A stretch of DNA of 64,000 nucleotides from an uncultured Draconibacterium sp. (GTDB taxonomy: Bacteria > Bacteroidota > Bacteroidia > Bacteroidales > Prolixibacteraceae), in assembly GCF_913060805.1 (NCBI RefSeq), contig NZ_CAJXTC010000006.1, forward strand, positions 1 to 64,000, read 5' to 3'. The notes beneath the pieces were generated by a model that was not told where the DNA came from, searched no databases, and worked only from the letters and a program-made list of their open reading frames with translations. The position numbers and the translations under genes are program-made. Position 1 is the stretch's first letter. Each line of letters starts with the position of its first letter. Shown piece after piece: positions 4,587 through 20,968 of this stretch.

Positions 4587-5036
4587 TTAAAAGTCAACTT
4601 TTCCGGTATAAAGGTCGGTCAATAAATGTCGTTGTTTGTCGAGATGGCAAAGTATAAATTCAAGACGCAAGATATCAGTACCTATCCATGTTCGTGTTTT
4701 CAACATAAAAACCGAGCCGTTACGTTCGAACAGCTCAATAAATGTTTTACCCGGATTTGTTTTTGACGTAAAGGCCTTGGGGTGGATAAAGTCCCATAGT
4801 TTCAGGCGTTCCGCAAACTTTGGCTTAAGTTTTAAGTCGCAATTAATGCGTTTCCACGTCCAGTAGTGGCGGTCTTTTTGTTTTGCCAGTTCTGTTTTTA
4901 AAAGCTGGTACTGATCTTTATCGGGGTATGTTTTAACAGCTTCGTCAAGCATTGCCCAGGCTGCTGTGCAGATGTCGTCGCCTTTAAACAGGTATTTCCC
5001 TTCGTTGGCGGTACTAAAAAGTAGTTCGATTCGCAT
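4587..5036 (-). CDS. Tandem paralogue 3 of an unrecognised 150-residue family
   Basis: This soluble-looking protein of 149 residues has no signal peptide or membrane segment, and I do not recognise the family. It shares with the next two genes the N-terminal IELLFSTAN, a TAAWAMLDEA block, LLKTEL.KQKD, W.W.RIN, FIELFE and the signature RTWIGTD.LRLEFI.CHLD, ending in GKVDF. The pattern is uniform along the whole length, which speaks for intact paralogues rather than debris. The genes lie head to tail on the minus strand with their own spacers. The spacers before this gene and the middle one are also alike, so whole gene-plus-promoter units were duplicated. Confidence 0.8.
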   Translation of the reverse strand: MRIELLFSTANEGKYLFKGDDICTAAWAMLDEAVKTYPDKDQYQLLKTELAKQKDRHYWTWKRINCDLKLKPKFAERLKLWDFIHPKAFTSKTNPGKTFIELFERNGSVFMLKTRTWIGTDILRLEFILCHLDKQRHLLTDLYTGKVDF

Positions 5037-5191
5037 ATGCGTTTGTTTTAGTTCTTAATAAAAACATAGCCTCACCGTAAAGCAATTATCGGGCCATTCA
5101 GTTTTACAAAACAATATATAAGTAAGGCTTAATACGATTTGTTACAGCCATAGTGGAATGAGGCTATATGCTTGTATAATATGTTCTGAGT

Positions 5192-5641
5192 TTAAAAGTC
5201 AACCATTCCGGCATAAAAATCAGCCAGTAGTTTTCGTCTTGTGTCGAGATTGCAAGGTATAAATTCAAGCTGTAGTTTATCGGTACCTATCCACGTTCGG
5301 GCATGCATCAAAAATATCGAGTCGGCCAACTCAAATATCTCAATAAAAGCTTCGCCTACTTTAGTTTTGGCCGTAAAGGTTCTGGGGTAAACAAAATCCA
5401 ACGGTTTCAGGCGTTCTGCAAATTCGGTGCTAATATCCCAGTCGAAATTTATACGCTCCCACGTCCATTCGTGCGGGTCTTTTTGTTTTTCAAGTTCGGT
5501 TTTTAAAAGTATGCAATGCTCATCGTTGGGGTAAATTTGAGCTGCCTCTTCAAGCATTGCCCAGGCTGCAGTGCTAAGGTCTTCGCCTTTAAACATGTAT
5601 TTCCCCTTGTTGGCGGTACTAAAAAGTAGTTCGATTTTCAT
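5192..5641 (-). CDS. Tandem paralogue 2 of an unrecognised 150-residue family
   Basis: It has 149 residues and is the closest relative of the gene at 4587. It carries IELLFSTANKGKYMFKGED at the start, TAAWAMLEEA, WTWERIN, a YPRTFTAKTK stretch, then ARTWIGTDKLQLEFI and a final GMVDF. The upstream spacer contains GTAAAGCAATTATC and TTTTACAAAACAATAT words that recur before the 4587 gene, consistent with a recent duplication that included the promoter region. Function is unknown. The conserved Trp, Arg and Asp positions hint at a shared fold or ligand, but this is only inference. Confidence 0.8.
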   Translation of the reverse strand: MKIELLFSTANKGKYMFKGEDLSTAAWAMLEEAAQIYPNDEHCILLKTELEKQKDPHEWTWERINFDWDISTEFAERLKPLDFVYPRTFTAKTKVGEAFIEIFELADSIFLMHARTWIGTDKLQLEFIPCNLDTRRKLLADFYAGMVDF

Positions 5642-5798
5642 TGTGTTTGTTTTTGTGTTATAAATGTAAACATAACACCATCGTAAAGCAATTATCAGGC
5701 CAATCAGTTTTACAAAACAATATTTTAAATGAGGCTAAATCCGATGAGTAATAAGGAAGAAGTATAATATTATTCTCTTGTCAGTTTTGTATCTGAGT

Positions 5799-6248
5799 TT
5801 AAAAGTTAAGCTTTCCGGCATTATAGTCGGCCAGCAATTTTTCTTTTTTGTCGATATGGCAGAGAATAAATTCGAGCCGCAAGAGATCGGTGCCTATCCA
5901 GGTTTGGGCATTCATCATAAATACTGAGTCATCGTGTTCAAAAAGCATAATAAGAGCTTTGCCTGTTTTTGTTTTTGGCGTGAAGGTTCTGGGGTAAACA
6001 AAATCAAGTGGTTTGTAGGATTTTGCAATATCAGGGGTAATGGCCCAGTCAGTATTAATACGCTTCCACACCCAGGAGTAAAGGTCTTTTTGTTTTGGTA
6101 GCTTGGTTTTTAAACGTTTATAATAATCATTATCGGGCTCAGCAACAACAGAGTCTTCAAGCAAGGCCCAGGCGGCCACGCTAAAATCGTGGCGTTGGTT
6201 CAGGTATAACTCTTTGTTCGCTGTTCTAAATAGAAGTTCGATTTGCAT
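5799..6248 (-). CDS. Tandem paralogue 1 of an unrecognised 150-residue family
   Basis: This is the most divergent member of the trio. I start it at the ATG at 6248 because the paralogues begin there (MQIELLF). An in-frame codon at 6287 would add 13 unmatched residues. The protein keeps the VAAWALLEDS block, LKTKLPKQKD, WVWKRIN, YPRTFTPKTKTGK, and AQTWIGTDLLRLEFILCHIDK, ending in GKLNF. Gene order and divergence suggest that this copy is older and the other two arose later. It lies back to back with the ceramidase-like gene at 6305, so the 56-bp gap must hold divergent start signals. Confidence 0.78.
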   Translation of the reverse strand: MQIELLFRTANKELYLNQRHDFSVAAWALLEDSVVAEPDNDYYKRLKTKLPKQKDLYSWVWKRINTDWAITPDIAKSYKPLDFVYPRTFTPKTKTGKALIMLFEHDDSVFMMNAQTWIGTDLLRLEFILCHIDKKEKLLADYNAGKLNF

Positions 6249-6304
6249 GCGCGTATGTTTTCGATGTATTAAATTTAGCAATAACACTTCTGGAAAACAA
6301 TTAC

Positions 6305-7675
6305 ATGAAACATGTCTGTTTATTGACCGATGAAATTCTTTGGAGCCTGATACTATTTATGGCTTGTCCGGCATTTGCCCAAACCGGTTTAAAAGTAGGG
6401 GCAGCTAAAGTCGATATCACACCAAAACAAAGTGAGCTGAAGAGTTCAACAGATATTATTCGTGGGAAACTTTATGTTCGTTCAATTTATATCGATAACG
6501 GTACAAATTCAGCTGTTTTAGTGTCTATCGATGCCGGCGGTATTCATGAAATTGATGATGTATTGGCGAAATCATCAGCATCAACAGGATGTCCGGCACA
6601 AAACTATGTGGTTACCGGAACGCATACGCACAGTGGTAACACCGGAGGTCTTTTTAACGGAGCTCCAACTCCGGAAACAATTGCCGATGCCATTGTTGCT
6701 TCTGTTGATCAGGCGAAGGCAAATATGGCGCCTGCACGTGTTGGTTACGGAACGACAGAAGTTGATTTGAACGTAAACCGCGATAATTTCGATGAGAATT
6801 TAGAGTGGCACCAAACTGCAAACTGGGATGGTCCTTCAGATAAAACCTTGGCAGTAATAACTTTCCTTGGCGAAGACGATGTGCCAATTGCTGTGTACAT
6901 GAATTACGCCATGCACCCGGTTAATTTCTTTATGAGTGGTGTTGTTAGTGCAGATTTCCCGGGCGATGCAACGAAATATGTTGAAGATATGTTCGACGGT
7001 AAAACTGTGGCTTTATTTAGCCAGGGAGCTTCCGGCGACCAAAATCCTAAAATGGCCTACACTTCTATCTTCCAGGAAGGCCAGATTCTAGGTGTTTTGC
7101 CTCCACCTGCTGCTCCATCAACAGGTCGCCAACCATCATTTGACGGACCGGGTGAAATTCCTGCCGATCAATTGGAGGCCCATAAAAAAGTTGTTGATCG
7201 CAAGAGCGACTATGTACACATGTTAGGAACTACTTTGGGTAACAACGCCGTTCAGGTTATGCTTTATCATACGCAATACGAAAAGAGTTCGAAAATCTGG
7301 TGTAAAAAAGAGGATGTAGTTTGTCCTGGCCGTGTTCGTATCGATACAAAAGGTCGCGAAAATTACGATCCGGGATACAAAGATGGTCCGGATGTACACA
7401 TCGGTTTGGGTTTGGTTCAGATTGGCGATATCAATCTGGTAACCGTTAGTGGCGAGGTTTATTCTGAGATTGGAATGCGCCTGAAAGCCGAGTCTCCTGC
7501 ATCTAAAACAATGATGGTTACATTGACCAACGGAACGCGTACCGGATATATTTATTCTACTCAGGCAAGTACTCACCTAACTTTCCAGGTGATTGGTTCA
7601 AACCTAAAACCCGGATATGCTGAACCGGCAATTGTGAATACCGCAATTGAAATGATGGAAGAATCAAAACTTTAA
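6305..7675 (+). CDS. Exported neutral/alkaline ceramidase-like hydrolase
   Basis: The 456-residue protein has a short N-terminal hydrophobic segment ending in AFAQ, which fits signal-peptide cleavage near residue 25, followed by KVGAAKVDITP. That opening and the histidine motif THTHSG (near residue 103) are typical of the N-terminal domain of neutral/alkaline ceramidases, zinc amidases. Other members act on unrelated esters or amides, so ceramide is not assured. It is shorter than full ceramidases (about 650 residues or more) and seems to lack the C-terminal domain. It heads a plus-strand run of exported hydrolases, which suggests a role in taking apart an acylated substrate outside the cytoplasm. 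Confidence 0.8.
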   Translation: MKHVCLLTDEILWSLILFMACPAFAQTGLKVGAAKVDITPKQSELKSSTDIIRGKLYVRSIYIDNGTNSAVLVSIDAGGIHEIDDVLAKSSASTGCPAQNYVVTGTHTHSGNTGGLFNGAPTPETIADAIVASVDQAKANMAPARVGYGTTEVDLNVNRDNFDENLEWHQTANWDGPSDKTLAVITFLGEDDVPIAVYMNYAMHPVNFFMSGVVSADFPGDATKYVEDMFDGKTVALFSQGASGDQNPKMAYTSIFQEGQILGVLPPPAAPSTGRQPSFDGPGEIPADQLEAHKKVVDRKSDYVHMLGTTLGNNAVQVMLYHTQYEKSSKIWCKKEDVVCPGRVRIDTKGRENYDPGYKDGPDVHIGLGLVQIGDINLVTVSGEVYSEIGMRLKAESPASKTMMVTLTNGTRTGYIYSTQASTHLTFQVIGSNLKPGYAEPAIVNTAIEMMEESKL

Positions 7676-7733
7676 AAGCGAATTTTTAACTTGCAGAACA
7701 GCTTTAGAATTAAAACCTTATAAAATAATCAAG

Positions 7734-8564
7734 ATGAAGAAATCGATCGCTCTAATTTTTATGCTGGCCCTGTGTCAGCTAACGATAATGGCGCAAATGC
7801 CGGCTGCCAACTTCGAGGGAGAAGAAGTTTTTAAAAACGACGATGTTGTTTTCCATAAAATCGACGACCACACCTGGGTGGGTACCGGGCACATGTCGGC
7901 GAACGAAAGTATTTATCTGATTGAAGGAAATGATAAAGCTGTTTTGCTTGATGCCGGAACAAAAATTACCGATCTGGATAAAATTGTGGCGTCAATTACC
8001 GACAAACCGGTTACACTGATGTTGACACACGTACATCCTGACCATGTTGGTGCTGCCGATTATTTTCCGGTGGTTTATATGAATCCCGGCGACAAAGAAT
8101 CTGCTGCTCAGATGATGCCAAATTATAAAGGTGAGTTTAAGTACCTTGAAGACGGACAGGTTATCGATCTTGGTGGCCGAAAACTGGAAGTGGTTTTCAC
8201 GCCTGCGCATACCTGGGGATCTACAACTTACATTGATAAAGAAGCCGGTTACGGTTTTAGCGGCGATTCATTTGGCTCAGGAAACTTATTAATGTTTGCC
8301 GGAACTTTCTCTGACCTGATTGCCACTTGCGAGAAAATGAGTGCAGTTATGGAGAAAGACGGTATCGAAAAATTGTATCCCGGGCACTTCCGTGGCGACA
8401 ATCCTGAAACAAAACAACGCGTGGAAGATCTGATAACCTTGAGTAAAGATATTCTTTCGGGTAAAGAAAAGGGCGAGGAAACGGAAGGTAACCGTTTTGG
8501 TTTTAACCACATTGCTACTAAGTACGGTGTGCGCGTAAATTACGGTGACAAAACTATGAAATAA
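7734..8564 (+). CDS. Exported metallo-beta-lactamase-fold hydrolase, copy 1
   Basis: It has 276 residues with a signal peptide ending near MAQ (residues 1-21). The zinc motif THVHPDH (HxHxDH) follows near residue 100, a further His in TPAHTWGSTTY and Asp in GFSGDSFGSGN, and PGHF near the end. This is the full ligand set of a binuclear MBL hydrolase. The family includes lactonases, esterases and lactamases, so the substrate is open. It is a close paralogue of the gene at 13143, which lies in the same run. The gap to the ceramidase-like gene is 58 bp and to the following esterase 37 bp, so they are likely co-transcribed. Confidence 0.85.
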   Translation: MKKSIALIFMLALCQLTIMAQMPAANFEGEEVFKNDDVVFHKIDDHTWVGTGHMSANESIYLIEGNDKAVLLDAGTKITDLDKIVASITDKPVTLMLTHVHPDHVGAADYFPVVYMNPGDKESAAQMMPNYKGEFKYLEDGQVIDLGGRKLEVVFTPAHTWGSTTYIDKEAGYGFSGDSFGSGNLLMFAGTFSDLIATCEKMSAVMEKDGIEKLYPGHFRGDNPETKQRVEDLITLSKDILSGKEKGEETEGNRFGFNHIATKYGVRVNYGDKTMK

Positions 8565-8601
8565 TCAACATTGCAAATACAGAACCTAAAAACGGAATAA
8601 A

Positions 8602-10269
8602 ATGAATCCAATAAACAGAAGACAATTCGTTAACCGATTATCATTAACAGCTGCCGGAACCATTGCTTTTTCAGGCCTTGCCTATTCATCAGGTAAGTTC
8701 ATGTCGGGTTTTGGTGCCGAAGAGTTTGTAACTGCCGAAAGCGCCACAGGAAAATTGCGAGGCGTAAGGCAAGACGGTGTAAATATCTTCAAAGGAATTC
8801 CGTACGGAGGTTCTGTTTCGGGCGAAAACCGGTTCCGTCGTCCGCCAAAAGTTGATCCGTGGACAGGTGTTCGCGATGCATTGGAATTGGGCGCTCCATC
8901 CTTGCAAACTTCCGGATGGGGACCAAAACCTGCAGAGGATTGTCTGTTCCTGAATGTGTGGACACCGGCCAACGATAATAAAAAACGTCCGGTAATGTTC
9001 TACAATCACGGTGGCGGTTATGTTACCGGATCGGGTGGTTCGGGCGGACAAGACGGTGCCAACCTGGCGCGTTATTTCGATGTGGTAGTGGTACAAACAA
9101 ACCACCGGTTAGGTTTATTGGGTTTTCTGTATTTAGATGAAATTGCAGGAGCGGATTACGCCGGATCAGGAAATATGGGCGTGTTGGATATTACTGCCGG
9201 ATTAAAATGGGTGAATGAGAATATTGACCGTTTTGGCGGCGATCCGAATAATGTAATGGTATTTGGTGAGTCGGGTGGTGGCGGAAAAACGTCGTGTATT
9301 TATGCCATGCCGGAAGCTTCGCCATACTTTAATAAAGCGTCGATTGAAAGTGGCCCGGGCGTTCGGATGCTCACAAAAGACCTGGCTGCCGAAACCACCG
9401 AAATGGTGCTAAAAGAAATGAATATCGCCAAAAATGACTGGCGAAAACTGTTGGAAGTTTCACCGGAGCAACTGTTGGAGATTCAGAATAAATTCATGTT
9501 TATTCCACCGTTCCAGGCAGAAATTGGAATGCCAGAGATGCACGGATTTGGTCCTGTTGTAGATGGTTCGGTGTTGCCAAATCATCCTTTTGATCCAACA
9601 GCGCCAAAAATCTCAAAAGACAAACCTTTGCTTACCGGATGGAACGAAGATGAATACGCATTTTTTGCGATGCAAAACAGGAATACCGAATTTACCAAAT
9701 TCACTTTTGATGATCTTCCTTCAAAGCTGGAAGCACAGTTCGGTGATGATGCTGCGACAATAGTGAATGCATACCGCAAAGCTTCGCCAAATGCAACGGC
9801 TCCTCAAATATTTATGGCTGTTTCGTCGATTAATATGATGGGACTGGGTTCCATTGAAATTGCCGAGCGCAAAACCAAAGAAGAGGGCGCGCCTGTTTAC
9901 CTGTACAATTTCGGGTATAAATCAGACATGAAAATTCCGGGATCGGATTTCCCAATGGGAACGCCACATGCCATGGACATTTCCTATAAATTCAACAATG
10001 TGCAGCCGCCAAAAGAAGGCGAGGAGCAACGACGTATGTTTGGCGACAGTTCGCCTGCAAGCTGCAAGGCATCGCACAATTTTGCCGAGTTGTGGACAAA
10101 TTTTGCACGAACCGGCGTGCCTTCAGCAGAAGGCGCACCGGAGTGGCCGGCCTATAATTTTAATGACCGCCCAACCATGCGAATCGATACCGAGTGCACA
10201 ATTATAAACGATCGGTACAATGTGGAGCTGGATATGTGGAGGAAAATTGGAAAATTACATACTGTTTGA
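8602..10269 (+). CDS. Tat-exported type B carboxylesterase
   Basis: This 555-residue alpha/beta hydrolase starts with the twin-arginine leader NRRQFVNRLSL followed by a hydrophobic stretch, so it should be exported folded. The oxyanion-hole motif HGGGYVTGSGG lies near residue 135, and the nucleophile elbow FGESGGGGK near residue 225. The catalytic His is probably in TPHAMDISYKF near 455. This is the classic layout of type B carboxylesterases (para-nitrobenzyl and feruloyl-type esters). With two further esterases nearby it suggests de-acylation of a decorated glycoside. The substrate is not determined by the sequence. Confidence 0.88.
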   Translation: MNPINRRQFVNRLSLTAAGTIAFSGLAYSSGKFMSGFGAEEFVTAESATGKLRGVRQDGVNIFKGIPYGGSVSGENRFRRPPKVDPWTGVRDALELGAPSLQTSGWGPKPAEDCLFLNVWTPANDNKKRPVMFYNHGGGYVTGSGGSGGQDGANLARYFDVVVVQTNHRLGLLGFLYLDEIAGADYAGSGNMGVLDITAGLKWVNENIDRFGGDPNNVMVFGESGGGGKTSCIYAMPEASPYFNKASIESGPGVRMLTKDLAAETTEMVLKEMNIAKNDWRKLLEVSPEQLLEIQNKFMFIPPFQAEIGMPEMHGFGPVVDGSVLPNHPFDPTAPKISKDKPLLTGWNEDEYAFFAMQNRNTEFTKFTFDDLPSKLEAQFGDDAATIVNAYRKASPNATAPQIFMAVSSINMMGLGSIEIAERKTKEEGAPVYLYNFGYKSDMKIPGSDFPMGTPHAMDISYKFNNVQPPKEGEEQRRMFGDSSPASCKASHNFAELWTNFARTGVPSAEGAPEWPAYNFNDRPTMRIDTECTIINDRYNVELDMWRKIGKLHTV

Positions 10270-10387
10270 ATAAACGAACTTAGTCCTTATTAGTCAAAGA
10301 CTTAATTTGCAAGACTGATCCTGATTTCGAAGATCGTTTTGCCTTAAAAAACTCAACCTTGAATTAACCGATATTAAATTGAAAACA

Positions 10388-11410
10388 ATGAAAAAATTTA
10401 CGCTACTAAGTTTAGCTCTTTTTGTGCTTAGCATTGCAACTTACGCGCAGGGAGGTTCAAATGGTTTGTTGATGCCCAAATTCATAAAACCCACTGATAA
10501 CAGCACAAGTACCCTGTTGACAGACCTTACAAAAGAACGGCATTTTTTCAGGGAACTACCTGCCGACAGTGAAATGAGTCTGCAAAAAGACGTTGTTTTT
10601 CACGAGACAAAAAGTATTGATGGCGATCCGATGTCGCTAAAAATGGACATCATAACTTACAAGGATGACAAGGTGCGTCCGTGTGTGGTTTATGTTATTG
10701 GCGGAGGTTTTTCTTTTGCTGCAAAAGAGCGGAATCTTTACGATCGGTACGAAATTGCAAAAGCCGGTTATGTGGTGGCAAGTGTGCAGTACCACGTTAT
10801 AAGCACCGGAATTTACAGCGACGCTGTTAAAGATGTAAAAGCTGCAATTCGTTTTATGCGGGCCAATGCCGATAAATACGGGGTTGATCCTGAAAACATT
10901 GGTATCTGGGGCGAATCTGCCGGAGGTTATTTAACCGCTATGGTGGCCACAACAAATGGCGAAAAACAGTTTGAAGAAGGTGAAAACCTGGATCAAAGCA
11001 GCGATGTAAAAGCAGCGGTTGATGCATATGGTTTGTCTGATCTTACAAAAATCGGAGCCGATTATGACGAAGATGCAGCAAACGCACACTTTACAGTAAT
11101 CTCTCCCGACGGACAGTTTATTCACGGAAAAAACAGCGGATTAACAAGTCTCGACAAACCGGAAGTTGTTGCCAAAGCAAATCCGATAACTTATGTGGAC
11201 AAAAACGATCCGCCATTTTTGCTTTTCCATGGAACAAACGATATGGCCGTTTCACCAAGTCAGACATTGTTATTGCACAACGCATTGCGCGAAAAAGGTG
11301 TTTCATCAACACGTTATGTGCTCGACGGAGCCGGACACGCCAGTGCCGAATTTTCTGATCCGCAGGTGATAAATATTATTATCGATTTTCTGGATGAGCA
11401 TTTGAAATAG
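10388..11410 (+). CDS. Exported alpha/beta hydrolase, acetyl/feruloyl esterase-like
   Basis: I take the ATG at 10388 (MKKFTLL) rather than the in-frame TTG nine bases upstream, giving 340 residues. A signal peptide ends near TYAQG. The core shows VIGGGFSF as oxyanion loop, GIWGESAGG as nucleophile elbow, FHGTNDMAV holding the acid Asp, and GAGHAS holding the catalytic His. The pattern is like that of small carbohydrate esterases of the BD-FAE or hormone-sensitive-lipase type, which remove acetyl or feruloyl groups. It is separated from the preceding esterase by 118 bp, where I see no clear terminator. Confidence 0.82.
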   Translation: MKKFTLLSLALFVLSIATYAQGGSNGLLMPKFIKPTDNSTSTLLTDLTKERHFFRELPADSEMSLQKDVVFHETKSIDGDPMSLKMDIITYKDDKVRPCVVYVIGGGFSFAAKERNLYDRYEIAKAGYVVASVQYHVISTGIYSDAVKDVKAAIRFMRANADKYGVDPENIGIWGESAGGYLTAMVATTNGEKQFEEGENLDQSSDVKAAVDAYGLSDLTKIGADYDEDAANAHFTVISPDGQFIHGKNSGLTSLDKPEVVAKANPITYVDKNDPPFLLFHGTNDMAVSPSQTLLLHNALREKGVSSTRYVLDGAGHASAEFSDPQVINIIIDFLDEHLK

Positions 11411-11480
11411 TAGGAGTATAGTGGGGCAGTTTTCTGGATGAAAACTTAAACCAATATCATATTAATCAAAAACTTAACTT

Positions 11481-13133
11481 ATGAGATCATTAAAATTTAT
11501 TCTTGCAGCATTCCTTTTCATAGGATTGTTTGCATGTCAAACTTCAACCACAAATGCACCTCCAACTGGTTCGCAACCGGGATCGCATCCGATGATCGCC
11601 AACAGCGAAACAGCGCAAACAAGCACCGAAAGTGGCGATGTAATCGGGTATGTGCACGACGGAGTTTTCAATTACAAAGGGATTCCGTATGCAAAAGCCG
11701 AGCGTTTTATGCCGCCACAAAAGCCTGATAAATGGGACGGTGTGCGTAGCTGTCGTTCGTATGGTCCGGTTTGCCCAATCGATGTTTCATCGATGATTTT
11801 GGCTGACGAAATGGAATTTGCGCAGCAGCACAATTTCTGGTTCATGAAAGAGGAAGATTGTAACAATCTGAATGTTTGGTCGCCGGGAATTAACGATGGT
11901 AAAAAACGTCCGGTAATGGTTTGGCTGCATGGTGGCGGTTACACTGCCGGTTCATCGTGCGAATTGCCAAGTTACGATGGCGAGAATTTAAGTCGCACCG
12001 GCGATGTGGTGGTAGTTTCCATCAATCATCGTTTAAATGTGCTTGGTTTCCTCGACCTGTCGGCTGTTGATGAAAAATATGCTCAATCGGCCAACGTGGG
12101 AATGATGGATGTTGTTGCCGCGTTGGAATGGGTGCATAACAACATTGCCAACTTTGGTGGCGATCCTGCTAACGTAACTATTTTCGGTCAGTCCGGTGGT
12201 GGTGGCAAAGTGGCTACCATGCTTTACACGCCTTCTGCAAAAGGCTTGTTCCACAAAGCAATTATGCAAAGTGGTGTTGCCGGAAGTTACAGCACCAAAG
12301 AAGCTACTCAGAAACTGGGTTTGGCCGTTATGGAAGAATTGGGTTTGAAAAATAGTGAAGTTGAGAAATTAAAAGATATTCCGCACGATGAATTGTTAGC
12401 TGCCGGAAACCGTGCAATTGCCAAAAGCAGCGGTGCAGGAATGGGACGTTTAGGATGGGCGCCATCGTGCGACGGTGTGTTTATTCCTTTGCAACCGGGA
12501 GCTCCCGGCGCCGAAGATCTGGCTAAAGATATTCCTGTAATCATGGGATCTAACCAGGTAGAATTTGGTTCGTTTGGCGGTGGTGCCGATTTGTTGCACG
12601 CCGATGAGGCAACTATCATCGAAAACCTGAAAGAGCGTTATGGCGACAAAACCGATGCTTATGTGGCAGCTTTTAAAAAGGCATATCCAAATACAAAATT
12701 ACCTTCTGATATGAAGGACGTTGATTTAATGTTCCGTCCGATGTTGTTGAACTTTGCCAACTTGAAATCAGCAGTTCCGGGTGGAGCGCCGGTTTACAAT
12801 TACGTGTTTAAATGGAATGCACCTCATTTGGATGGGATGTTAAAATCGAGCCACTGTATGGAGATCGCGTTTGTTTTCAACAACATTGCACGCACCGAAG
12901 AGTACAACAGCGGATCGCCGGAAGCATATGCGCTTGCCGAGAAGTTGAGTAAAACATGGGCAACTTTCGCGCACACCGGAAATCCGAACAACGTGGATAT
13001 GCCCGAGTGGGAACCATTTACTCCCGATGGCGGTGCTACTATGTTATTCGATAATCAATCGGAACTGGTTCATAATCACGATAAAGAAATGATCGAGATT
13101 GCCACTTCAGTTCCTCAACCAAGTATCTTTTAA
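11481..13133 (+). CDS. Lipoprotein type B carboxylesterase
   Basis: The 550-residue protein has a lipoprotein leader with lipobox LFAC (Cys near residue 19), so it is probably anchored in a membrane facing the periplasm or surface. It has the type B carboxylesterase elements: EDCNNLNVW, HGGGYTAGS for the oxyanion hole, FGQSGGGGK with the nucleophilic Ser, and SHCMEIAFVF containing the likely catalytic His. It is related to the esterase at 8602 but has GQSGG in place of GESGG. Only 9 bp separate it from the following MBL-fold gene, a strong hint of an operon. Confidence 0.88.
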   Translation: MRSLKFILAAFLFIGLFACQTSTTNAPPTGSQPGSHPMIANSETAQTSTESGDVIGYVHDGVFNYKGIPYAKAERFMPPQKPDKWDGVRSCRSYGPVCPIDVSSMILADEMEFAQQHNFWFMKEEDCNNLNVWSPGINDGKKRPVMVWLHGGGYTAGSSCELPSYDGENLSRTGDVVVVSINHRLNVLGFLDLSAVDEKYAQSANVGMMDVVAALEWVHNNIANFGGDPANVTIFGQSGGGGKVATMLYTPSAKGLFHKAIMQSGVAGSYSTKEATQKLGLAVMEELGLKNSEVEKLKDIPHDELLAAGNRAIAKSSGAGMGRLGWAPSCDGVFIPLQPGAPGAEDLAKDIPVIMGSNQVEFGSFGGGADLLHADEATIIENLKERYGDKTDAYVAAFKKAYPNTKLPSDMKDVDLMFRPMLLNFANLKSAVPGGAPVYNYVFKWNAPHLDGMLKSSHCMEIAFVFNNIARTEEYNSGSPEAYALAEKLSKTWATFAHTGNPNNVDMPEWEPFTPDGGATMLFDNQSELVHNHDKEMIEIATSVPQPSIF

Positions 13134-13142
13134 TCATTGAAA

Positions 13143-13970
13143 ATGAAGAAAATAGTTTTATTACTTAACGCGATATTGATTGCTACAATCGGTTTGTATG
13201 CGCAACCACAATTTAAAATTGATGGCGAAGAAGTGTACACAGGCGACGATGTGGTTTTTCACCAAATTGATGATCATACCTGGGTAGGAACCGGTAAAGC
13301 CATGTCGAACGAGAGTTTGTACCTGGTAGAAGGAAATGAGAAAGCTTTGCTGATTGATGCCGGAACAAACATTAAAGGGCTGGATAAAATTGTGGAGTCG
13401 ATCACTTCAAAACCTTATACAGTGGTGGCTACACACGTTCATCCCGATCATACCGGACCATCGATCGATGTGTTTTCTGAGATTTATATCAATGAGGCCG
13501 ATACAGTTGGAATTCCTCAGTTTATGCCCGATTATAAAGGCGAAGTGAAATTTCTGAAAGACGGTGAAGTCTTTGATCTTGGCGGAAGAAAGATCGAGGT
13601 TGTTTTCACTCCCGGTCATACTCCCGGATCAACAACTTTTATCGATAAAGCTGCCAAATACGGTTTCAGTGGCGACTCGTTCGGATCAGGTAATTTATTG
13701 CTGACTACCAACTTCTCGACGCTGAAAAATACTTGTGAGAAAATGAGCAAAGTAATGGTCGATAACGGTATCACAGAACTTTATCCCGGTCACTTTTTTG
13801 GTGGAAATAAAGAAACCAAAAAGCGGGTCGACGATCTTGAAAAGATCAGTGAAGAAGCATTGTCAGGAGACTTAAAAGGAGATGAGAACCCACAAGGATT
13901 TATGGGGCTTAACCTTTTAATTAATCGCGATGGCGTTCGCGTAAATTACAGCGCCCAAGCATTAAAATAA
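13143..13970 (+). CDS. Exported metallo-beta-lactamase-fold hydrolase, copy 2
   Basis: The start is placed at the ATG at 13143. The in-frame TTG at 13137 adds two residues. A signal peptide ends near LYAQ. The zinc motif THVHPDH, TPGHTPGSTTF, GFSGDSFGSGN and YPGHF match copy 1 at 7734 nearly position for position, and both share the unusual stretch HQIDDHTWVGTG. Two such enzymes in one hydrolase locus suggest related but different substrates, for example two lactones or esters. It is followed after 39 bp by the GH78 gene. Confidence 0.85.
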   Translation: MKKIVLLLNAILIATIGLYAQPQFKIDGEEVYTGDDVVFHQIDDHTWVGTGKAMSNESLYLVEGNEKALLIDAGTNIKGLDKIVESITSKPYTVVATHVHPDHTGPSIDVFSEIYINEADTVGIPQFMPDYKGEVKFLKDGEVFDLGGRKIEVVFTPGHTPGSTTFIDKAAKYGFSGDSFGSGNLLLTTNFSTLKNTCEKMSKVMVDNGITELYPGHFFGGNKETKKRVDDLEKISEEALSGDLKGDENPQGFMGLNLLINRDGVRVNYSAQALK

Positions 13971-14009
13971 GTACATATTTAGTTGAATAAAATCTATAAA
14001 ACCAATACA

Positions 14010-16361
14010 ATGAAAAAGTTAATTACATTAATTCTTATTATCTCGGCATTTGCAAGTTCGGCGCAAATGTTTGGACCACCACGAAATAACGAATGGGATG
14101 CAAGCTGGATTTGCGTGCCTGAAGCCGGAGCAACCGACGCAGGTCTTTACCTGTTCCGTAAAACAATAAATTTTGATGCTGTTCCCGCTAAATTTGAAAT
14201 GCGCGTAACGGCTGATAATCGCTATAAACTTTATATCAACGAAAAACTGGTTTCAATGGGACCTGCATTGGGCGATTTGAAACACTGGAATTACGAAACT
14301 GTTGACATTGCTCCATTCCTGAAACAAGGCGAAAATATTATTGCCGCCGAGGTTTGGAACGAAGGTGATATGAAACCCGTTTCTCAATTCTCATGGAAGA
14401 CCGGATTTTTATTCCAGGGAACCGACGATGCAACCAAAGTGTTGAACACCAACGATTCGTGGAAATGTATCGAAGATAAAAGTTACACACCTATACGTCA
14501 GCAGGTTCGTGGTTATTATGCAGCCGGTGCCGGTGAAAAAATCGACATGAATTACGCTGTAAAAGGATGGAAAGCTTTAAGTTTTGACGATACCAGTTGG
14601 AAATCGGCCAAAGCAGTTTTCGAACGTTCAACAAGAGGAATGGGCTTTAACACCCGCGGCGGATGGACCTTGCAGCCATCGATTATTCCGCAAATGGAAA
14701 TGACTTACCAACGTTTGGTGTCCACGCGAAAAGCGGAAGGTGTTACTGTGCCTACCAACTTCCCTGAAGAAAAAGTGGCCATTGAAGTGCCTGCAAATAC
14801 AACTGCAACAATCCTGCTCGATCAGGAAGTTTATACCAACGCTTATCCAACGCTTGTATTCAGCGGCGGCGATGAAGGTACAATTGTAATTACCTATTCT
14901 GAAGGTTTGTACAATGCCGAAGGCGCGAAAAACAACCGTAACGAGATTGAAGGAAAAACGATTTCCGGACGTATGGATACCATTATTTCGGACGGTTCGC
15001 AAAACCAGACTTTCACAACCTTGAACTGGAGAACTTACCGTTATTTGGAAATAAAAGTGGAAACAAAAGACAGTCCGCTTACCATCGAAGATTTCTACGG
15101 AACATTTACCGGTTATCCGTTTGAAATGAACGCCAAGATTAACGCCAACGATGCTGAGTTGGATAAAATTCTGGATATTGGCTGGCGTACGGCTCGTTCT
15201 TGTGCGGTTGAAACTTACATGGACTGCCCGTATTACGAACGTCTGCAATACATTGGTGATGCGCGTATTCAGTTGTTTGTTTCGTATTTCAACAGTGGCG
15301 ACGACCGTTTGGCAAAAAATGCATTGAACCTGATGAACAACTCTCGCCAGGTGGATGGATATACTTTAAGTCGTTATCCGGATACTCAAAACCAGGTAAT
15401 TGCAACCTACTCGATGTGGTTTGTTTGCATGTTGCACGACTACCTGATGTACGGAAGTGATCCTGAATTTTTGGATGACAAATTGCTGGGATCTCGCCAG
15501 ATTCTGAACTACTTCATCAGTTTTGTTGACGACGATGGTTCACTGAAAAACCTGCCGGGATGGAACTTTACCGACTGGGCAAGCAACTGGCGCATGGGAA
15601 CAGCTCCTGCTGCTGAGGATGGAAGTACTGCTTTGCTCGATCTGCAGTTGTTACTGGCTTTACAGGCGGGAATGGAACTGGAGCAAGTTCAAGGTAGCGA
15701 AGAGTATGCGGACATGTATGCAAGCCTGGCGAAAAAAATGTCGGAAACTATTAAAAGCAAATACTGGGATGCTTCGCGCAACTTATTTGCCGACACTCCT
15801 GATAAAAAGGATTTCTCGCAACATACCAATTCAATGGCGATTCTTGCAGGACTTACCACTCCGGAGCAAAACGTTAAAATTGCTGAGCAGATGTTGGAAG
15901 ATGAGTCGCTGACTCAGGCTACTATCTACTTTAAATACTACTTGCACCTGGCATTGGCGAAAGCCGGTATGGGCGACGATTTCCTGGAATGGCTAGACAT
16001 CTGGCGTAAGAATATCGATCTTGGTTTAACTACCTGGGGCGAAACTTCGGAAGTGGAAACTACCCGCTCTGATTGCCATGCATGGGGTGCCAGTCCGAAC
16101 ATTGAAGCTTACCGCATTATTCTTGGAATTGAGAGTGCTGCTCCGTATTTCAAAAAAGTAAAAATTGAGCCAAATATTGGTGCATTCGAAACCATTAGCG
16201 GCGAGATGCCTCACCCGGCTGGAACAATTGCTGTTGATTACGATAATTCAGCAAGCGGTTTAAAAGCTGAAATCAGCTTGCCCGAAGGAATTACCGGAAC
16301 ATTTGTTTGGGAAGGTAAAAGCCACACATTGAAAAGCGGAAAGAACAATCTTGAATTATAG
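14010..16361 (+). CDS. Exported alpha-L-rhamnosidase, GH78 family
   Basis: Starting at the ATG at 14010, the protein has 783 residues and a signal peptide ending in SSAQ. An N-terminal beta-sandwich (WIC..E..L.RK, YKLYINE) leads into the (alpha/alpha)6 catalytic domain. There, ETYMDCPYYERLQYIGDARI carries the residue pattern of the GH78 acid site, and WGETSEVETTRSDCHAWGA lies near the end, followed by the usual C-terminal beta domain. It should release terminal L-rhamnose from glycosides. It ends the first unit of the locus: a strong hairpin terminator follows at 16403. Confidence 0.87.
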   Translation: MKKLITLILIISAFASSAQMFGPPRNNEWDASWICVPEAGATDAGLYLFRKTINFDAVPAKFEMRVTADNRYKLYINEKLVSMGPALGDLKHWNYETVDIAPFLKQGENIIAAEVWNEGDMKPVSQFSWKTGFLFQGTDDATKVLNTNDSWKCIEDKSYTPIRQQVRGYYAAGAGEKIDMNYAVKGWKALSFDDTSWKSAKAVFERSTRGMGFNTRGGWTLQPSIIPQMEMTYQRLVSTRKAEGVTVPTNFPEEKVAIEVPANTTATILLDQEVYTNAYPTLVFSGGDEGTIVITYSEGLYNAEGAKNNRNEIEGKTISGRMDTIISDGSQNQTFTTLNWRTYRYLEIKVETKDSPLTIEDFYGTFTGYPFEMNAKINANDAELDKILDIGWRTARSCAVETYMDCPYYERLQYIGDARIQLFVSYFNSGDDRLAKNALNLMNNSRQVDGYTLSRYPDTQNQVIATYSMWFVCMLHDYLMYGSDPEFLDDKLLGSRQILNYFISFVDDDGSLKNLPGWNFTDWASNWRMGTAPAAEDGSTALLDLQLLLALQAGMELEQVQGSEEYADMYASLAKKMSETIKSKYWDASRNLFADTPDKKDFSQHTNSMAILAGLTTPEQNVKIAEQMLEDESLTQATIYFKYYLHLALAKAGMGDDFLEWLDIWRKNIDLGLTTWGETSEVETTRSDCHAWGASPNIEAYRIILGIESAAPYFKKVKIEPNIGAFETISGEMPHPAGTIAVDYDNSASGLKAEISLPEGITGTFVWEGKSHTLKSGKNNLEL

Positions 16362-16402
16362 ATTCATTGGTTGAATAGTTATACTTAAGTTAAGCATTTA
16401 CA

Positions 16403-16440
16403 GGTCATTCAGGGAATTAATTTCCCTGGATGACCATTTT
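16403..16440 (+). terminator. Intrinsic terminator after the GH78 gene
   Basis: GGTCATTCAGGGAA (16403-16416) pairs with TTCCCTGGATGACC (16422-16435) over 14 bp with one G-T pair and a 5-nt loop, followed by a T-rich tail. It separates the hydrolase unit from the reductase-cytochrome unit. Confidence 0.85.
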
Positions 16441-16609
16441 CTATTAAATGTAAAAAGCACCTCCTAACGAAAGAAATATATTGAGTTGTGAGTTTAAAAT
16501 GCTGCGTTTAAGCAGCTGTCAACTTAAATGTATTTCCCAAAAACATTGATTTTGTAGAAGTGGCAAACAGGTGTTCCGGAGAACAATGTTGCCTGAATTT
16601 AATATTGAT

Positions 16610-18281
16610 ATGGAAAAGTACATAAAACATACTATCGAAAATGGTATTTCGCGACGTAGTTTTTTGTCGCGCGCTGCTGTGGCTTCGTGTGCCGCCGGTT
16701 TGGTTGGGTTTGCCAGCTGTAAGCCGGAGAGTCCCAGCCAGGAAGCATTTCAGGAGGGAGTGGCCTACGGAAAAAGTATAGACGATGCAGCAAAACTATC
16801 GTTTCTTCCAAAACCGGAGGAAATACCGGAGAGCGAGATAAGTAAAACAGAATCATTTGATGTGGTAATTGTTGGGGCAGGTGCTTCGGGAGTTCCGGCA
16901 GCGCTGTCGGCACTCGAAAACGGCGCTTCTGTTGCTGTTCTTCAAAAGGAAAATATAGCTATTTCTCAGGGTAATTCCGGTGCCGGAATTGATCTCAGCA
17001 CAAGTGATAAAGCCGGTGTGGAAGCGCTGGTTTCAAGATTAATGGGAGACAATGCACATCGTTGTAATCCAAAATTGCTCCGCGAGTGGGCATATAATTC
17101 AGGCGAGGCAGTTTCGTGGGTAATCGACCGTGCACAAAAAGCCGGTGCAAAAGTGATTAACCAGGGGAATTTACAGCAGGTAAATATCCTAAAAATGAAT
17201 GGTTATAAGCTGGGTTTTCATACCGCATATTTTGGCTCAAAACCGTATACCAATGGCGATGGAATGCGCGATTTGGCGGCTTATGCCGAGAAACAAGGTG
17301 TGAAGTTTTTCTATAGTACGCCTGCAGTTCAGCTGGTTCAGGAAGATAGCGGTGAAATTACCGGCGTTATCGGGAAAAAGCAGGATGGCGCCTACACCAA
17401 ATTTCTGGCTAAAAAAGGTGTTATTCTTGCAACTGGCGATTACCAAAATAACAAAGCTATGTGCGATTATTTTGTTCCTGATGCCAAAAATTTCGGACGC
17501 AAACAATCGCGCAAAACCGGCGATGGTTTCGTTTTAAGGATACTGGGCAGGTGGTGTTATCGAGCCAATTGGCCATACAAAAATGTTGCACGATTTTGAT
17601 GCCGGGCCGGCTACCATGTGCGATATGCCATTCCTGACTGTCGATCACTCGGGAAAAAGGTTTGTAAACGAAAGCGTGGAAATGTCGTTGCTGTGTAATT
17701 ATTTACGCGGACCCGAGAAAACCGGGCAGTATTCGCAGATATTCGATGCGAATTACATGACACAGGCCAAAAACTGGCCGGGTGTTTTGGTGTCGCCCGA
17801 AGATATGAAAAATTACATGCCTGATGAGGATGTTCCGCATCGTCATGGCGTGTATGAAGCTTTTATAAATACGCATAAAGCCGATACTCTTGAGGAGCTT
17901 GCGCTTAAAATTGAAGCCGATCCGGAGACCTTGAAAGCGACAGTAAAAAGGTATAATGAGCTGGTAGCGTCGAAACAAGATTCTGATTTCGGAAAAGCCG
18001 CCGAGTTCATGAAACCGATTGATACTCCTCCGTTTTATGGTATTCACCGCACATTGCGACTTTCAGCCGTTTGTTCAGGATTGCTTGTTGATGAAAATCA
18101 TCAGTGTTTGAATGCCGAGGGAGACAAAATAAAAGGCTTGTATGCCATCGGTAATCTTGGTGGTGGTTTTTATGGCGGAGTGGATTATCCGCTAACGGTT
18201 TACGGTTTGTCGCTGGGGCGCTGTTACACTTTCGGTTACCTGGCCGGACGACATGTTGCCAATTTGCAACCTACCGCTTAA
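16610..18281 (+). pseudogene. Tat-exported FAD-dependent fumarate-reductase-like flavoprotein, frameshifted
   Basis: The reading frame from 16610 carries a twin-arginine leader SRRSFLSR with Cys in FASCK, and the FAD-binding motif VGAGASG near residue 89. It shifts near 17536. The next frame continues GYWAGGVIEPIGHTKMLHDF and runs to 18281, with HRTLRLSAVCSG and a terminal GNLGGGFYGGVDYPLTVYG typical of the flavocytochrome c / fumarate-reductase family. Removing one A at 17536-17537 restores a single frame of about 557 residues (DGFVLGYW). An upstream in-frame GTG at 16571 exists. I prefer the ATG because the Tat leader follows it. The shift may be a real mutation, a sequencing error or, less likely, programmed. 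Such reductases accept electrons from a membrane cytochrome, and one is encoded next. Confidence 0.82.
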
Positions 18282-18320
18282 AGCTTTTTTACTACTTACA
18301 AACTTTAAAAAGATTTTGAA

Positions 18321-18914
18321 ATGAACGATAAAACCAAGTCAGCCGGAAAGAGATCAATGCTTCGGATGCCAAGAGTTCTGATTCTTGCGGCTGTAATAGT
18401 TGTTGTCCTCTCAGGACTTGTAACCGGCGGGGTGCACTGGCACAATCAGCCCGGCTTTTGTACCAACTGTCACACCCCAATGAACGAATATGTAGAAAAT
18501 TATTATGGCGGCGATACAACGCTGATGATTACGCGTCATGCAATGGCAGACACCGTTTCGCTTCGATGCCTGGATTGCCACAGCCAGAAATTGAATGAGC
18601 AGCTTACAGAAGGAGCGCACTGGCTGACCGGGAACTATACTTTTCCGCTGGAAAAGCGTGAAATCGGTACCCGTAGTTTTTGTATGACTGCAGGATGCCA
18701 TGTGGAAGAGGAGATTATAAAAGCAACAACTAATACGCAGGAAATGTCGTTTGCTTTTAGCCAGCACGATCCGCGCCACGGAAAGCAGGAATGTTACACC
18801 TGCCATTCCATGCACGGGCAGTCGGTTTATTCCTGTAACCAGTGTCATCATTTTGAATTGCCGGAAGGCTGGATTTCGCCGCAGCCAAATGGCGTGATTG
18901 CCAGTTTAGATTAG
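18321..18914 (+). CDS. Membrane-anchored multihaem cytochrome c, NapC/NrfH-like quinol donor
   Basis: This 197-residue protein has one N-terminal transmembrane helix (about residues 16-36) followed by haem motifs CTNCH (47), CLDCH (83), CYTCH (158) and CNQCH (172), plus CMTAGCH (121), a CX4CH site that could bind a fifth haem as in some cytochromes c3. Proteins of this shape take electrons from menaquinol and hand them to periplasmic reductases. It begins 39 bp after the flavoprotein gene, so the two form a probable respiratory pair in which the flavoprotein reduces an organic acceptor. The acceptor cannot be read from the sequence. Confidence 0.87.
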   Translation: MNDKTKSAGKRSMLRMPRVLILAAVIVVVLSGLVTGGVHWHNQPGFCTNCHTPMNEYVENYYGGDTTLMITRHAMADTVSLRCLDCHSQKLNEQLTEGAHWLTGNYTFPLEKREIGTRSFCMTAGCHVEEEIIKATTNTQEMSFAFSQHDPRHGKQECYTCHSMHGQSVYSCNQCHHFELPEGWISPQPNGVIASLD

Positions 18915-18934
18915 AATAACTAAAACTAAATAAG

Positions 18935-20968
18935 ATGAAAACGAAACCTGTATTTTTTAAGCATTTAAAACGTTATTTATTTTTCTCTGGTAGTTTGTTG
19001 CTACTGTTTTCGTGCAATAAAAATGCAGGTATTTCACAACCCGAGCTGGGGGTGAAAAGTGTTGAACTGATTAGCGCAGATGGTTTTCAGTTTAAAGATT
19101 TGAATAAAAACGGTGAGCTGGATAAGTATGAAGACTGGCGTTTGACGACCGATGAACGTGTTGCCGATTTGCTGCAGCAAATGACGCTGGAAGAAAAGGC
19201 CGGATTTATGCTGATCAGTACCATAAACATGGGTGGAGCATCCGGTGGTGGTTTTGGTGGAAACCGGAATGTAACCAGCGATCTGTCGGAAGAAGATAAT
19301 ATTAATGAAACCAATTTTTTTACACGCCAGCCACTGCCGGTACCAACACTAAGTGTTTCGGGAACTACTAAGGGAATATTGGAAAGAAATCTTCGCCACT
19401 TTATTTTGCGCGCTAATACCAAGGCTTCAACCATTGCGCAGTGGGCCAATAATGTGCAGGAAGTTGCGGAATCGTCGCGTTTGGGGATTCCGGTTCTGAT
19501 TACGTCAAATCCGCGAAACCATATTACAATCGATAACTCGCCGGGATTAAGTTTGGGGGAAACCGGTTTCTCAAAATGGCCGGGAGAACTGGGATTGGCA
19601 GCCATGCGAGATTTTGAATTGACCCGCGAATTTGCTGAAACGGCAGCCAAAGAATGGTGTGCAGTTGGAATACGTAAAGGTTACATGTATATGGCCGATT
19701 TGGCTACCGAGCCGCGTTGGGGACGAACAGAAGGAACTTTTGGCGAGGATGCCGATCTGGCTGCCAATATGATTCGTGAAGTGGTTTTGGGATTTCAGGG
19801 TGATGAATTAGGACCACATTCGGTAGCGCTGACCACAAAACACTTTCCGGGAGGCGGACCACAGAAAGATGGTCAGGATGCGCATTTCGACTGGGGAAAA
19901 GGGCAGGAGTATCCCGGAAATATGCTGGATTACCACCTGAAACCTTTTAAAGCGGCTATCGATGCAGGAACTTCTGCAATTATGCCGTATTACGCTGTGC
20001 CGGTTGGTACTGAATACGACGAAGTTGGATTTGCGTTCAACAAAGGGGTAATCACCGATCTGCTTCGTGGAGAACTGGGTTTTCAGGGAATTATAAATTC
20101 CGATACAGGCCCTATTTTTATGATGCCGTGGGGTGTTGAAAGCCTATCTGTTTCTGAGCGTTATCAAAAAGCATTGGAAGCCGGTGTCGACTTATTTTCA
20201 GGCGTGGCTGATCCCACATTTCTTTTGGAAACGATAAAAGAAGGATTGGTGTCTGAAGACCGGATTGATGAATCTATAACTCGGTTGCTAAAAGAAAAAT
20301 TTGAGTTGGGAATTTTTGAAAATCCTTATGTAGATGTTGAAGCGGCCGACGCATTTGTTGGAAATGCTCAGTTTCAGGAAAAAGCAAATCTGGCGTTGCG
20401 AAAGTCGATTGTTTTGCTCAGAAATGAGGCTGATTTGCTGCCGGCAAAAGCTAAAACCAAAGTCTATTTCGAGAAGTATGTGGTTTCGCGAGGTAGCGAT
20501 GATCCGCATGTTGTAATTGTGCCCGAGGAGAACAATTGGGAAGTGGAATTTGTGGATTCACCCGAAAAAGCAGATTTGGTTGTGTTGTGGTTGATTCCCG
20601 GATCTGGTGGCTTATTTGGATCTGGCGGAGGTGAAATCCATAATGAACTGTCGAAAAATAACATCGACGTTAACTACGTCAATCACATTCAAGCCCAAAA
20701 GCCAACGGTAGTGGCCATAAACTTTAGCAATCCGTGGGTAATCAGCGAAATTGACAATGGAAATCTAAATACAGTTCTGGCAACTTTTGGAACTACAACC
20801 AACGCTGTGCTTGATGTAATTTCGGGACAGTTTAATCCGACGGGAAAAATGCCGTTTTCAATACCGGCTTCTACCGAGGCTGTAATTAATAATCTGCCGG
20901 ATGTACCGGGAGCACAGGAAAATGAGGGATATGCCGTTTTTAATTTTAACGACGGAATAAGTTACTAA
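18935..20968 (+). CDS. Lipoprotein beta-glucosidase-like glycoside hydrolase, GH3 family
   Basis: The 677-residue protein has a lipoprotein leader (LLFSCNK, Cys near residue 27). EPRWGRTEGTFGEDADL and TKHFPGGG are hallmark GH3 segments, and GIINSDTGP holds the expected nucleophile Asp. A C-terminal Rossmann-like domain follows and the protein ends in NDGISY. GH3 enzymes release glucose, xylose or related sugars from beta-linked ends. It starts 21 bp after the cytochrome gene, so a sugar-releasing enzyme is co-transcribed with a respiratory reductase pair, which is unusual. Confidence 0.88.
   Translation: MKTKPVFFKHLKRYLFFSGSLLLLFSCNKNAGISQPELGVKSVELISADGFQFKDLNKNGELDKYEDWRLTTDERVADLLQQMTLEEKAGFMLISTINMGGASGGGFGGNRNVTSDLSEEDNINETNFFTRQPLPVPTLSVSGTTKGILERNLRHFILRANTKASTIAQWANNVQEVAESSRLGIPVLITSNPRNHITIDNSPGLSLGETGFSKWPGELGLAAMRDFELTREFAETAAKEWCAVGIRKGYMYMADLATEPRWGRTEGTFGEDADLAANMIREVVLGFQGDELGPHSVALTTKHFPGGGPQKDGQDAHFDWGKGQEYPGNMLDYHLKPFKAAIDAGTSAIMPYYAVPVGTEYDEVGFAFNKGVITDLLRGELGFQGIINSDTGPIFMMPWGVESLSVSERYQKALEAGVDLFSGVADPTFLLETIKEGLVSEDRIDESITRLLKEKFELGIFENPYVDVEAADAFVGNAQFQEKANLALRKSIVLLRNEADLLPAKAKTKVYFEKYVVSRGSDDPHVVIVPEENNWEVEFVDSPEKADLVVLWLIPGSGGLFGSGGGEIHNELSKNNIDVNYVNHIQAQKPTVVAINFSNPWVISEIDNGNLNTVLATFGTTTNAVLDVISGQFNPTGKMPFSIPASTEAVINNLPDVPGAQENEGYAVFNFNDGISY

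Follow-up and report, generated by a model that had tools for sequence, protein, structure and literature searches.

A Draconibacterium rhamnosidase locus with an exported flavoprotein and a multihaem cytochrome: conservation, phenolic-ester neighbours and possible function

Bacteroidota are usually regarded as sugar fermenters. Why, then, would a rhamnosidase locus of this phylum carry genes for an exported flavoprotein and a membrane-anchored multihaem cytochrome c directly after a series of ester and glycoside hydrolases? The question is raised by a stretch of 64,000 nucleotides from an uncultured Draconibacterium species of the Prolixibacteraceae (assembly GCF_913060805.1, contig NZ_CAJXTC010000006.1, positions 1 to 64,000), here called the window, in which the locus spans positions 6305-20968 of the + strand. 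The original prediction, made from the letters of the window, had proposed that the locus strips acylated phenolic rhamnosides and respires the freed aglycone. A conserved neighbourhood and a phenolic-ester context are seen in two unrelated bacterial groups, and the evidence points to plant phenolics.

The explanation that we judge to be probable, if narrowly so, is that the locus serves the utilisation of an acylated, rhamnose-bearing glycoside of plant type and ends in a quinol-fed module of anaerobic respiration that reduces the C=C bond of a phenylpropanoid. Secreted esterases and the rhamnosidase of glycoside hydrolase family 78 (GH78), joined in some genomes by GH106 or GH3, would release sugars and the phenylpropanoid, most likely ferulate, caffeate or another hydroxycinnamate, and the exported reductase, which binds flavin adenine dinucleotide (FAD), would saturate its C=C bond. 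Electrons would pass from menaquinol to the adjacent NapC/Cgr1-type multihaem cytochrome and from there to the reductase. The sugar would be fermented or oxidised with the aglycone as electron acceptor, and the cell might gain energy in doing so.

Conservation and gene content of the cluster

Eight Bacteroidota loci were compared by BLAST with the window proteins: the window itself, stretches of 34 kb that surround the gene in each of five congeners, a 21.5-kb contig of genome G732 and 38 kb of genome G712. The flavoprotein, the GH78 gene, the cytochrome gene directly 3' of the flavoprotein and at least one gene for a hydrolase of the metallo-beta-lactamase (MBL) fold lie in one cluster in 8/8 of these genomes, different genera and altered gene orders included. 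The original prediction had proposed such conservation as a check, and the neighbourhood is indeed kept; as the arrangement recurs in other genera, it is not due to chance. In the window, the GH78-type alpha-L-rhamnosidase (13983-16361, +) is recognised by three Bac_rhamnosid models and is closest among solved chains to Rhamnosidase B (174 bits). The flavoprotein is read in two pieces (16571-17599 and 17583-18281, +), both of which match FAD_binding_2 and the second of which is in the next frame, and the membrane-anchored cytochrome (18321-18914, +; Cytochrom_c3_2) combines four CXXCH motifs with one CX4CH motif.

The cytochrome also accompanies the flavoprotein in other phyla. A scan of named genomes returned 72 flavoprotein loci, 23 of them in Shewanella and the others in Holophagaceae and other Acidobacteriota, Geobacteraceae, sulfate reducers, Bacteroidota, Actinomycetota and further groups. 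Outside Actinomycetota and Bacillota, a multihaem-type cytochrome, related to one of two query cytochromes, starts less than 300 bases downstream of the flavoprotein in 51/51 loci; 42 are of a small four-haem type and nine of a longer membrane type. The longer type is common to Bacteroidota and to metagenome-assembled genomes (MAGs) of Syntrophaceae, Myxococcota, Planctomycetota and Acidobacteriota that are their neighbours in the tree. A motif (SRR) like that of the twin-arginine translocation (Tat) signal is present on the flavoprotein in nearly all aligned rows that reach the N-terminus. Among the 21 loci of Actinomycetota and Bacillota, 20 carry a divergent LuxR-type membrane regulator (identified by Pfam in one case), and neither query cytochrome matched after the flavoprotein in these 20, some of whose contigs end soon after the gene. 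The exception, locus L098 of an uncultured Eggerthellaceae, has a relative of the longer, Bacteroidota-type cytochrome about 208 bases 3' of the flavoprotein.

The window cytochrome may be called NapC-like on the basis of a NapC/NirT match of 24.1 bits, which is exactly the cut-off and is not reached by the cytochrome of locus L041, together with a match to the Cgr1 model (NF051471, 115 bits, cut-off 340) and the gene layout. The NapC family takes electrons from quinol, and quinol is for this reason the presumed donor here. Two Cytochrom_C_asm (cytochrome c assembly) genes are present in the same genome.

All ten genes of the window locus lie on the + strand, and every function that had been named for them (three esterases, two MBL-fold hydrolases, a ceramidase-like hydrolase, GH78, GH3, flavoprotein and cytochrome) was recovered in the open reading frames and by Pfam (Ceramidase_alk, Lactamase_B twice, COesterase twice, BD-FAE, Bac_rhamnosid, FAD_binding_2, Cytochrom_c3_2, NapC/NirT and GH3). 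The locus begins with a secreted ceramidase-like hydrolase (6305-7675; PF04734, 59.5 bits over the N-terminal part only), whose relatives in the other loci show 36-97% identity. It is followed by a secreted MBL-fold hydrolase (7734-8564; PF00753, 66 bits), the Tat-exported carboxylesterase COE1 (8602-10269; PF00135, 312 bits), a secreted BD-FAE family esterase (10379-11410; PF20434, 168 bits), the lipoprotein carboxylesterase COE2 (11481-13133; PF00135, 316 bits) and a second secreted MBL-fold hydrolase (13137-13970), which is a paralog of the first by Pfam and BLAST. The first MBL-fold hydrolase is 58-62% identical to the copies of the second in Draconibacterium relatives. The Tat motif (SRRSFL), the signal peptides and the lipoprotein cysteine (probable on the flavoprotein) were assigned by eye. 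With the window counted, COE1 and the ceramidase-like gene are kept in seven of the eight loci, BD-FAE in six and COE2 in five; the genes without a match are COE1, COE2 and the ceramidase-like gene in G009, BD-FAE and COE2 in G008, COE2 in G034 and BD-FAE in G712.

The GH3 glycosidase gene (18935-20968; PF00933, 143 bits) does adjoin the cytochrome gene as the original prediction stated, at a distance of 20 bases (18915-18934) and not 21. As a member of the unit it was rejected: a GH3 gene of the window type is found in 2/8 loci, following the cytochrome only in the window and in G034, and G712 has a different GH3 elsewhere in its cluster. In G712, SusC-like, SusD, GH106, GH3, ceramidase-like, COE1, COE2, MBL, GH78, flavoprotein and cytochrome genes follow one another in this order on one strand, with SusD, GH106 and GH3 assigned by Pfam and SusC by eye, its partial stretch giving no Pfam match. 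TonB-receptor plug and STN domains lie downstream of the cytochrome in G013; no SusC or SusD was recognised by eye among the listed reading frames of the window. GH106 alpha-L-rhamnosidase genes stand at the locus itself in G712, G009 and G732, and in the window about 40 kb away (60019-63396, -).

Elsewhere in the window, an EcoRI-type adenine methylase, a GmrSD-N/HNH nuclease and an Abi_2 protein stand in a row near the contig start (925-4097, +) and may form a defence cassette. Positions 4587-6287 (-) encode a protein of about 150 aa in three tandem, diverged copies, alike by eye, of which the tested copy had no Pfam match. Rfam and tRNA scans of the 64 kb gave no matches.

The interrupted flavoprotein gene of the window

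The original prediction had described a Tat-exported, fumarate-reductase-like flavoprotein; such a gene is present, although not as a single reading frame, because one frame change between about 17527 and about 17541 divides it. The gene is intact, at 556-569 aa, in all five congeners that carry it, and the C-terminal piece of the window is 84-99% identical to theirs. The ratio of nonsynonymous to synonymous substitution rates (Ka/Ks) between the window gene and these five is 0.03-0.14 upstream of the break and 0.01-0.09 downstream (0.014-0.135 when both sides are taken together). Low values on both sides indicate that the gene was broken recently or that the assembly is wrong at this place.

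Whether the respiratory half is dead in this one genome, with the flavoprotein a recent pseudogene and the locus taking sugar and esters only, is in our judgement evenly balanced, and the answer does not compete with the explanations weighed below. A single frame change lies inside the gene, a search of the contigs of the window's own genome found no second member of the flavoprotein family, and the two strongest of the 17 PF00890 matches in that genome, apart from the two that are the flavoprotein pieces, resemble by eye NadB (L-aspartate oxidase) and SdhA/FrdA, the A subunit of succinate dehydrogenase or fumarate reductase. Against a pseudogene, selection is not relaxed on either side of the break, and errors are conceivable in a draft of 5.48 Mb in 79 contigs, since the window holds another GH78 gene that is divided as well. 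This larger gene (56206-59901, -) is apparently another broken one and occupies two open frames, with an N-terminal Ig domain of Rha78A in 58897-59901 and the remainder in 56206-58827. With the flavoprotein gene frameshifted, respiratory activity in the window genome itself finds no support.

Phenolic-ester neighbours, active site and rival explanations

The neighbours of the flavoprotein suggest what it might reduce. In three of the eight Bacteroidota loci (G013, G034 and G008), a gene for an esterase with a carbohydrate-binding module and a carbohydrate esterase family 1 domain (CBM48-CE1) stands between GH78 and the flavoprotein; the G013 protein matches the solved ferulic acid esterase 6rzn with 405 bits, and the G034 and G008 copies are 90% and 67% identical to it. 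The same interval of G013 holds a gene of the PF07519 tannase/feruloyl esterase family (260 bits) as well, and in G034 a sulfatase lies between the CE1 gene and the flavoprotein. The sole feruloyl-esterase-like name in the window is BD-FAE; the closest solved chains of that protein are Lip_vut4 and an acetyl xylan esterase.

The PF07519 family recurs in Shewanella. In a sample of 117 genomes the flavoprotein was found in 33 (in G816 as a partial match only) and PF07519 in 19, all of them within the 33, with neither in the remaining 84 (Fisher p 2.4e-13, kinship of the genomes ignored). The two genes lie at most 2.3 kb apart in 14 of the 19 genomes with both. Relatives of the PF07519 protein of locus L072 (402 bits) are near the flavoprotein in 11 of the 23 named Shewanella loci, after a porin in six, just upstream on the same strand in three and upstream on the opposite strand in two. 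In 23/23 of these named loci the next gene after the flavoprotein encodes a small cytochrome with four-haem features. Close by in 21/23 are a porin-like gene (downstream in 11, upstream in 10) and a GntR regulator, with one example of each neighbour identified by Pfam (Cytochrom_c3_2, GntR, OprD). The tannase gene is split or carries a stop in four of the 19 carriers (G748, G749, G752 and G810), where the flavoprotein frame remains at least 562 aa long, as if the esterase had been lost first.

A regulator offers a further clue. In two loci of Deltaproteobacteria type, Geomonas (L048) and a Desulfuromonadaceae MAG (L090), a divergent sigma-54 activator with an XylR_N domain (84 and 97 bits), described as 'activator of aromatic catabolism', adjoins the flavoprotein, and homologs hold the same position in L051 and L086. 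Both halves of the proposal gain independent support from the phenolic-ester hydrolases in Draconibacterium relatives and Shewanella, from this aromatic-sensing type of regulator and from the cytochrome partner. The L048 and L090 loci also share similar FG-GAP repeat proteins with no assigned role (13572-15287 and 13463-15133, respectively), each after a porin-like gene.

Judged by its sequence, the flavoprotein apparently acts like an exported flavin reductase and is less probably an acid reductase in the manner of FccA, the flavocytochrome c3 of S. frigidimarina. The intact protein matches FAD_binding_2 with 119 bits and, among the 25 of 43 matching NCBIfam models that were listed, scores highest against vinyl phenol reductase (NF053717, 167 bits, cut-off 600). 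The flavocytochrome c model TIGR01813 (cut-off 285) gave 132 bits, and scores were likewise obtained with several models for ketosteroid dehydrogenases. None of these 25 models, flavocytochrome c and ketosteroid models included, reached its cut-off, and the protein was therefore not placed in a family of known and unrelated substrate, an outcome that would have spoken against the original prediction. Residues H322, K324, H327, D328, D330, C337, R480, D525 and Y526 are invariant in an alignment of 28 rows and 97-100% conserved in a set of 79 rows (three duplicates within). Each of the 28 rows, a few of them incomplete at the N-terminus, has 4-10 cysteines, with only C337 present in at least 90%. 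The AlphaFold model has a mean predicted local distance difference test (pLDDT) score of 77, with the substrate-side loops 353-360 and 525-527 below 50, and its structural neighbours UrdA, FccA, ketosteroid dehydrogenases and cyclohexanone dehydrogenases are bunched at Z 31-35 (UrdA and FccA at 33-35). The pocket prediction that had been proposed as a check singled out no substrate and was rejected as a guide, because the key loops are of low confidence and the neighbouring enzyme classes too close in Z.

Several points weigh against a glycoside locus that respires its phenylpropanoid. The flavoprotein gene is broken in the very genome under study, and the cut-offs of the vinyl phenol reductase (VprA) and Cgr1 models are missed widely. 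In five of the eight Bacteroidota loci, the window among them, the interval from GH78 to the flavoprotein shows no CE1 gene, and PF07519 is missing from D. mangrovi and Mangrovibacterium. The Shewanella genomes are related, so that the Fisher p overstates their independence; in 5/19 of those with both genes the two are far apart or on separate contigs, and 14/33 flavoprotein carriers have no PF07519. The closest solved chain of both PF07519 proteins tested is mono(2-hydroxyethyl) terephthalate (MHET) hydrolase, and the family includes this enzyme as well as tannases, whose products have no C=C bond. Finally, in an ungapped comparison with FccA, M358 stands at R402, S485 and A/T486 take the place of the histidine pair, and R544 has no arginine counterpart, in 28/28 rows; MAFFT places R366 (26/28 rows) opposite R402 across a gap, which leaves the loss of these residues a strong point and not a final one. 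In FccA, R402 is the catalytic arginine, the histidines are part of the active site and R544 is the arginine that binds carboxylate. R402 and H365 are also named in PDB titles. The roles of the two arginines are also given in PMC4427408. Since the carboxylate-binding residues seem absent, reduction of the freed acid, which had been envisaged, finds no support in the form in which fumarate and urocanate reductases carry it out.

The foremost rival, which we regard as unlikely, is that the same quinol-fed exported reductase would act on another substrate, such as a vinylphenol or stilbene, an esterified cinnamate, an enone or lactone, or the steroid-like aglycone of a saponin or cardenolide freed from a rhamnoside. 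The apparent absence of carboxylate-anchoring residues would suit such a substrate, as would the D525-Y526 loop, which sits where FccA has its carboxylate arginine, the first place of vinyl phenol reductase among the curated models listed, and the scores of the ketosteroid dehydrogenase models. A comparable absence is reported for the lactone-reducing Cgr2, which is said to lack six of seven fumarate reductase residues (PMC5953540). On the other side, neighbours of the feruloyl-esterase and tannase families occur in two unrelated groups and suggest small phenolic acids, and none of the proteins run through Pfam, which cover a minority of the neighbours of the 72 loci, was named as a phenolic-acid decarboxylase.

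More doubtful still is the notion that reductase and cytochrome form a mobile respiratory module, brought by chance to a place beside rhamnosidases, with an acceptor unrelated to the glycoside or with a role in detoxification or redox balance. The spread of the flavoprotein is certainly patchy: with the C-terminal piece as query it was found in 6/37 genomes of the genus, the window's own included, in 0/24 others of the order, and in 5/80 of a family-level sample (nearly all candidates scored), among them the two other genera of G712 and G732. Phylum-wide searches found it in 1/395 genomes, the window's own (first three candidates per genome scored), and in 1/247 (at most five candidates scored). 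In the family tree, which was quickly built and whose root was not used because the outgroup is so distant, Bacteroidota copies are interspersed with those of other phyla, and GH78 of the window kind occurs in 4/72 loci, all of them in Bacteroidota. As no such rhamnosidase adjoins the reductase in Shewanella and others, the reductase looks like a module added to the rhamnoside locus, and a rhamnoside as the general source of its substrate finds no support. Against a chance landing stand the GH78 and MBL cluster kept in every Bacteroidota locus compared, despite different genera and changed order, and the GH78 orthologs of at least 88% identity, which are present in the six carriers of the genus and in only one non-carrier (G010, a partial match, no flavoprotein found). 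The same core is also found in Plebeiobacterium (L038).

A classical acid reductase of the fumarate or urocanate type is very improbable, since it shares the fold (UrdA and FccA among the structural neighbours given above) but neither the catalytic arginine nor the substrate-binding histidine and arginine were found at their places in the 28 rows and the flavocytochrome c match falls below its cut-off. We return to a glycoside locus that probably ends in phenylpropanoid reduction. The observation in the original prediction stands once corrected for the frameshift, and its interpretation is partly supported, in that conservation and a phenolic-ester context are seen, whereas the substrate, the chemistry and the coupling are inferred.

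Significance and comparison with known systems

If true, this explanation would tie the deacylation of plant polymers to anaerobic respiration within one locus of Bacteroidota, and would provide a substrate hypothesis for a reductase family of Shewanella, Geothrix, Geomonas, sulfate reducers, Eggerthellaceae and Bacteroidota. None of the papers listed in literature searches, judged by title and start of abstract and including few subscription papers, describes this family, whether alone or with feruloyl esterases or a polysaccharide utilisation locus (PUL). Relatives with intact genes include D. mangrovi, Mangrovibacterium lignilyticum and many Shewanella strains. A bolder claim, which we put forward tentatively and with rather less than even confidence, is that of a PUL-type locus with the end of an anaerobic respiratory chain of its own, in which one acylated plant glycoside would give both donor (the sugar) and acceptor (the phenylpropanoid, once deacylation has freed it). 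Its reductase would stand for a novel family of enzymes that reduce phenolic C=C bonds, have been transferred widely and do not use the carboxylate clamp of fumarate reductases.

Respiration of phenolics by exported flavoproteins would not be without precedent. Gut bacteria of the Burkholderiaceae, Eggerthellaceae and Erysipelotrichaceae reportedly respire dietary phenolics with extracytoplasmic flavin reductases (cinnamate, resveratrol and itaconate reductases), and cinnamate reductases are said to have arisen several times (Little and colleagues, in 2024). We know of no link between these reductases and a PUL of Bacteroidota.

The layout resembles that of the cardiac glycoside reductase Cgr1/Cgr2 of Eggerthella lenta. 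There, according to PMC5953540, a Tat-exported FAD_binding_2 flavoprotein with an active site divergent from fumarate reductases is paired with a NapC/NrfH-like membrane protein of the cytochrome c3 family, and a route from a membrane donor through the cytochrome to the flavin is proposed. Sixteen cysteines and an essential [4Fe-4S] cluster are reported for Cgr2, whereas the flavoprotein family studied here has few cysteines and only one that is conserved; moreover, the context here is one of phenolic esters and rhamnosides and not of cardenolides. The methacrylate reductase Mrd/Mcc of Geobacter sulfurreducens AM-1 is likewise an exported flavoprotein with a separate multihaem cytochrome, encoded in one operon and moved jointly between phyla, although R353, H461 and R501 are reported as conserved in Mrd (PMC4427408) and their equivalents are seemingly absent from the flavoprotein here. 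VprA, the top curated match over the whole flavoprotein among those listed, differs in that the protein described here has an export signal and a cytochrome partner. With the SusC/SusD-type PULs, finally, the cluster has in common the SusD-bearing, one-strand arrangement of G712 with its GH106, GH3 and GH78 genes, and it differs from them in carrying a terminal reductase together with a cytochrome on the quinol side.

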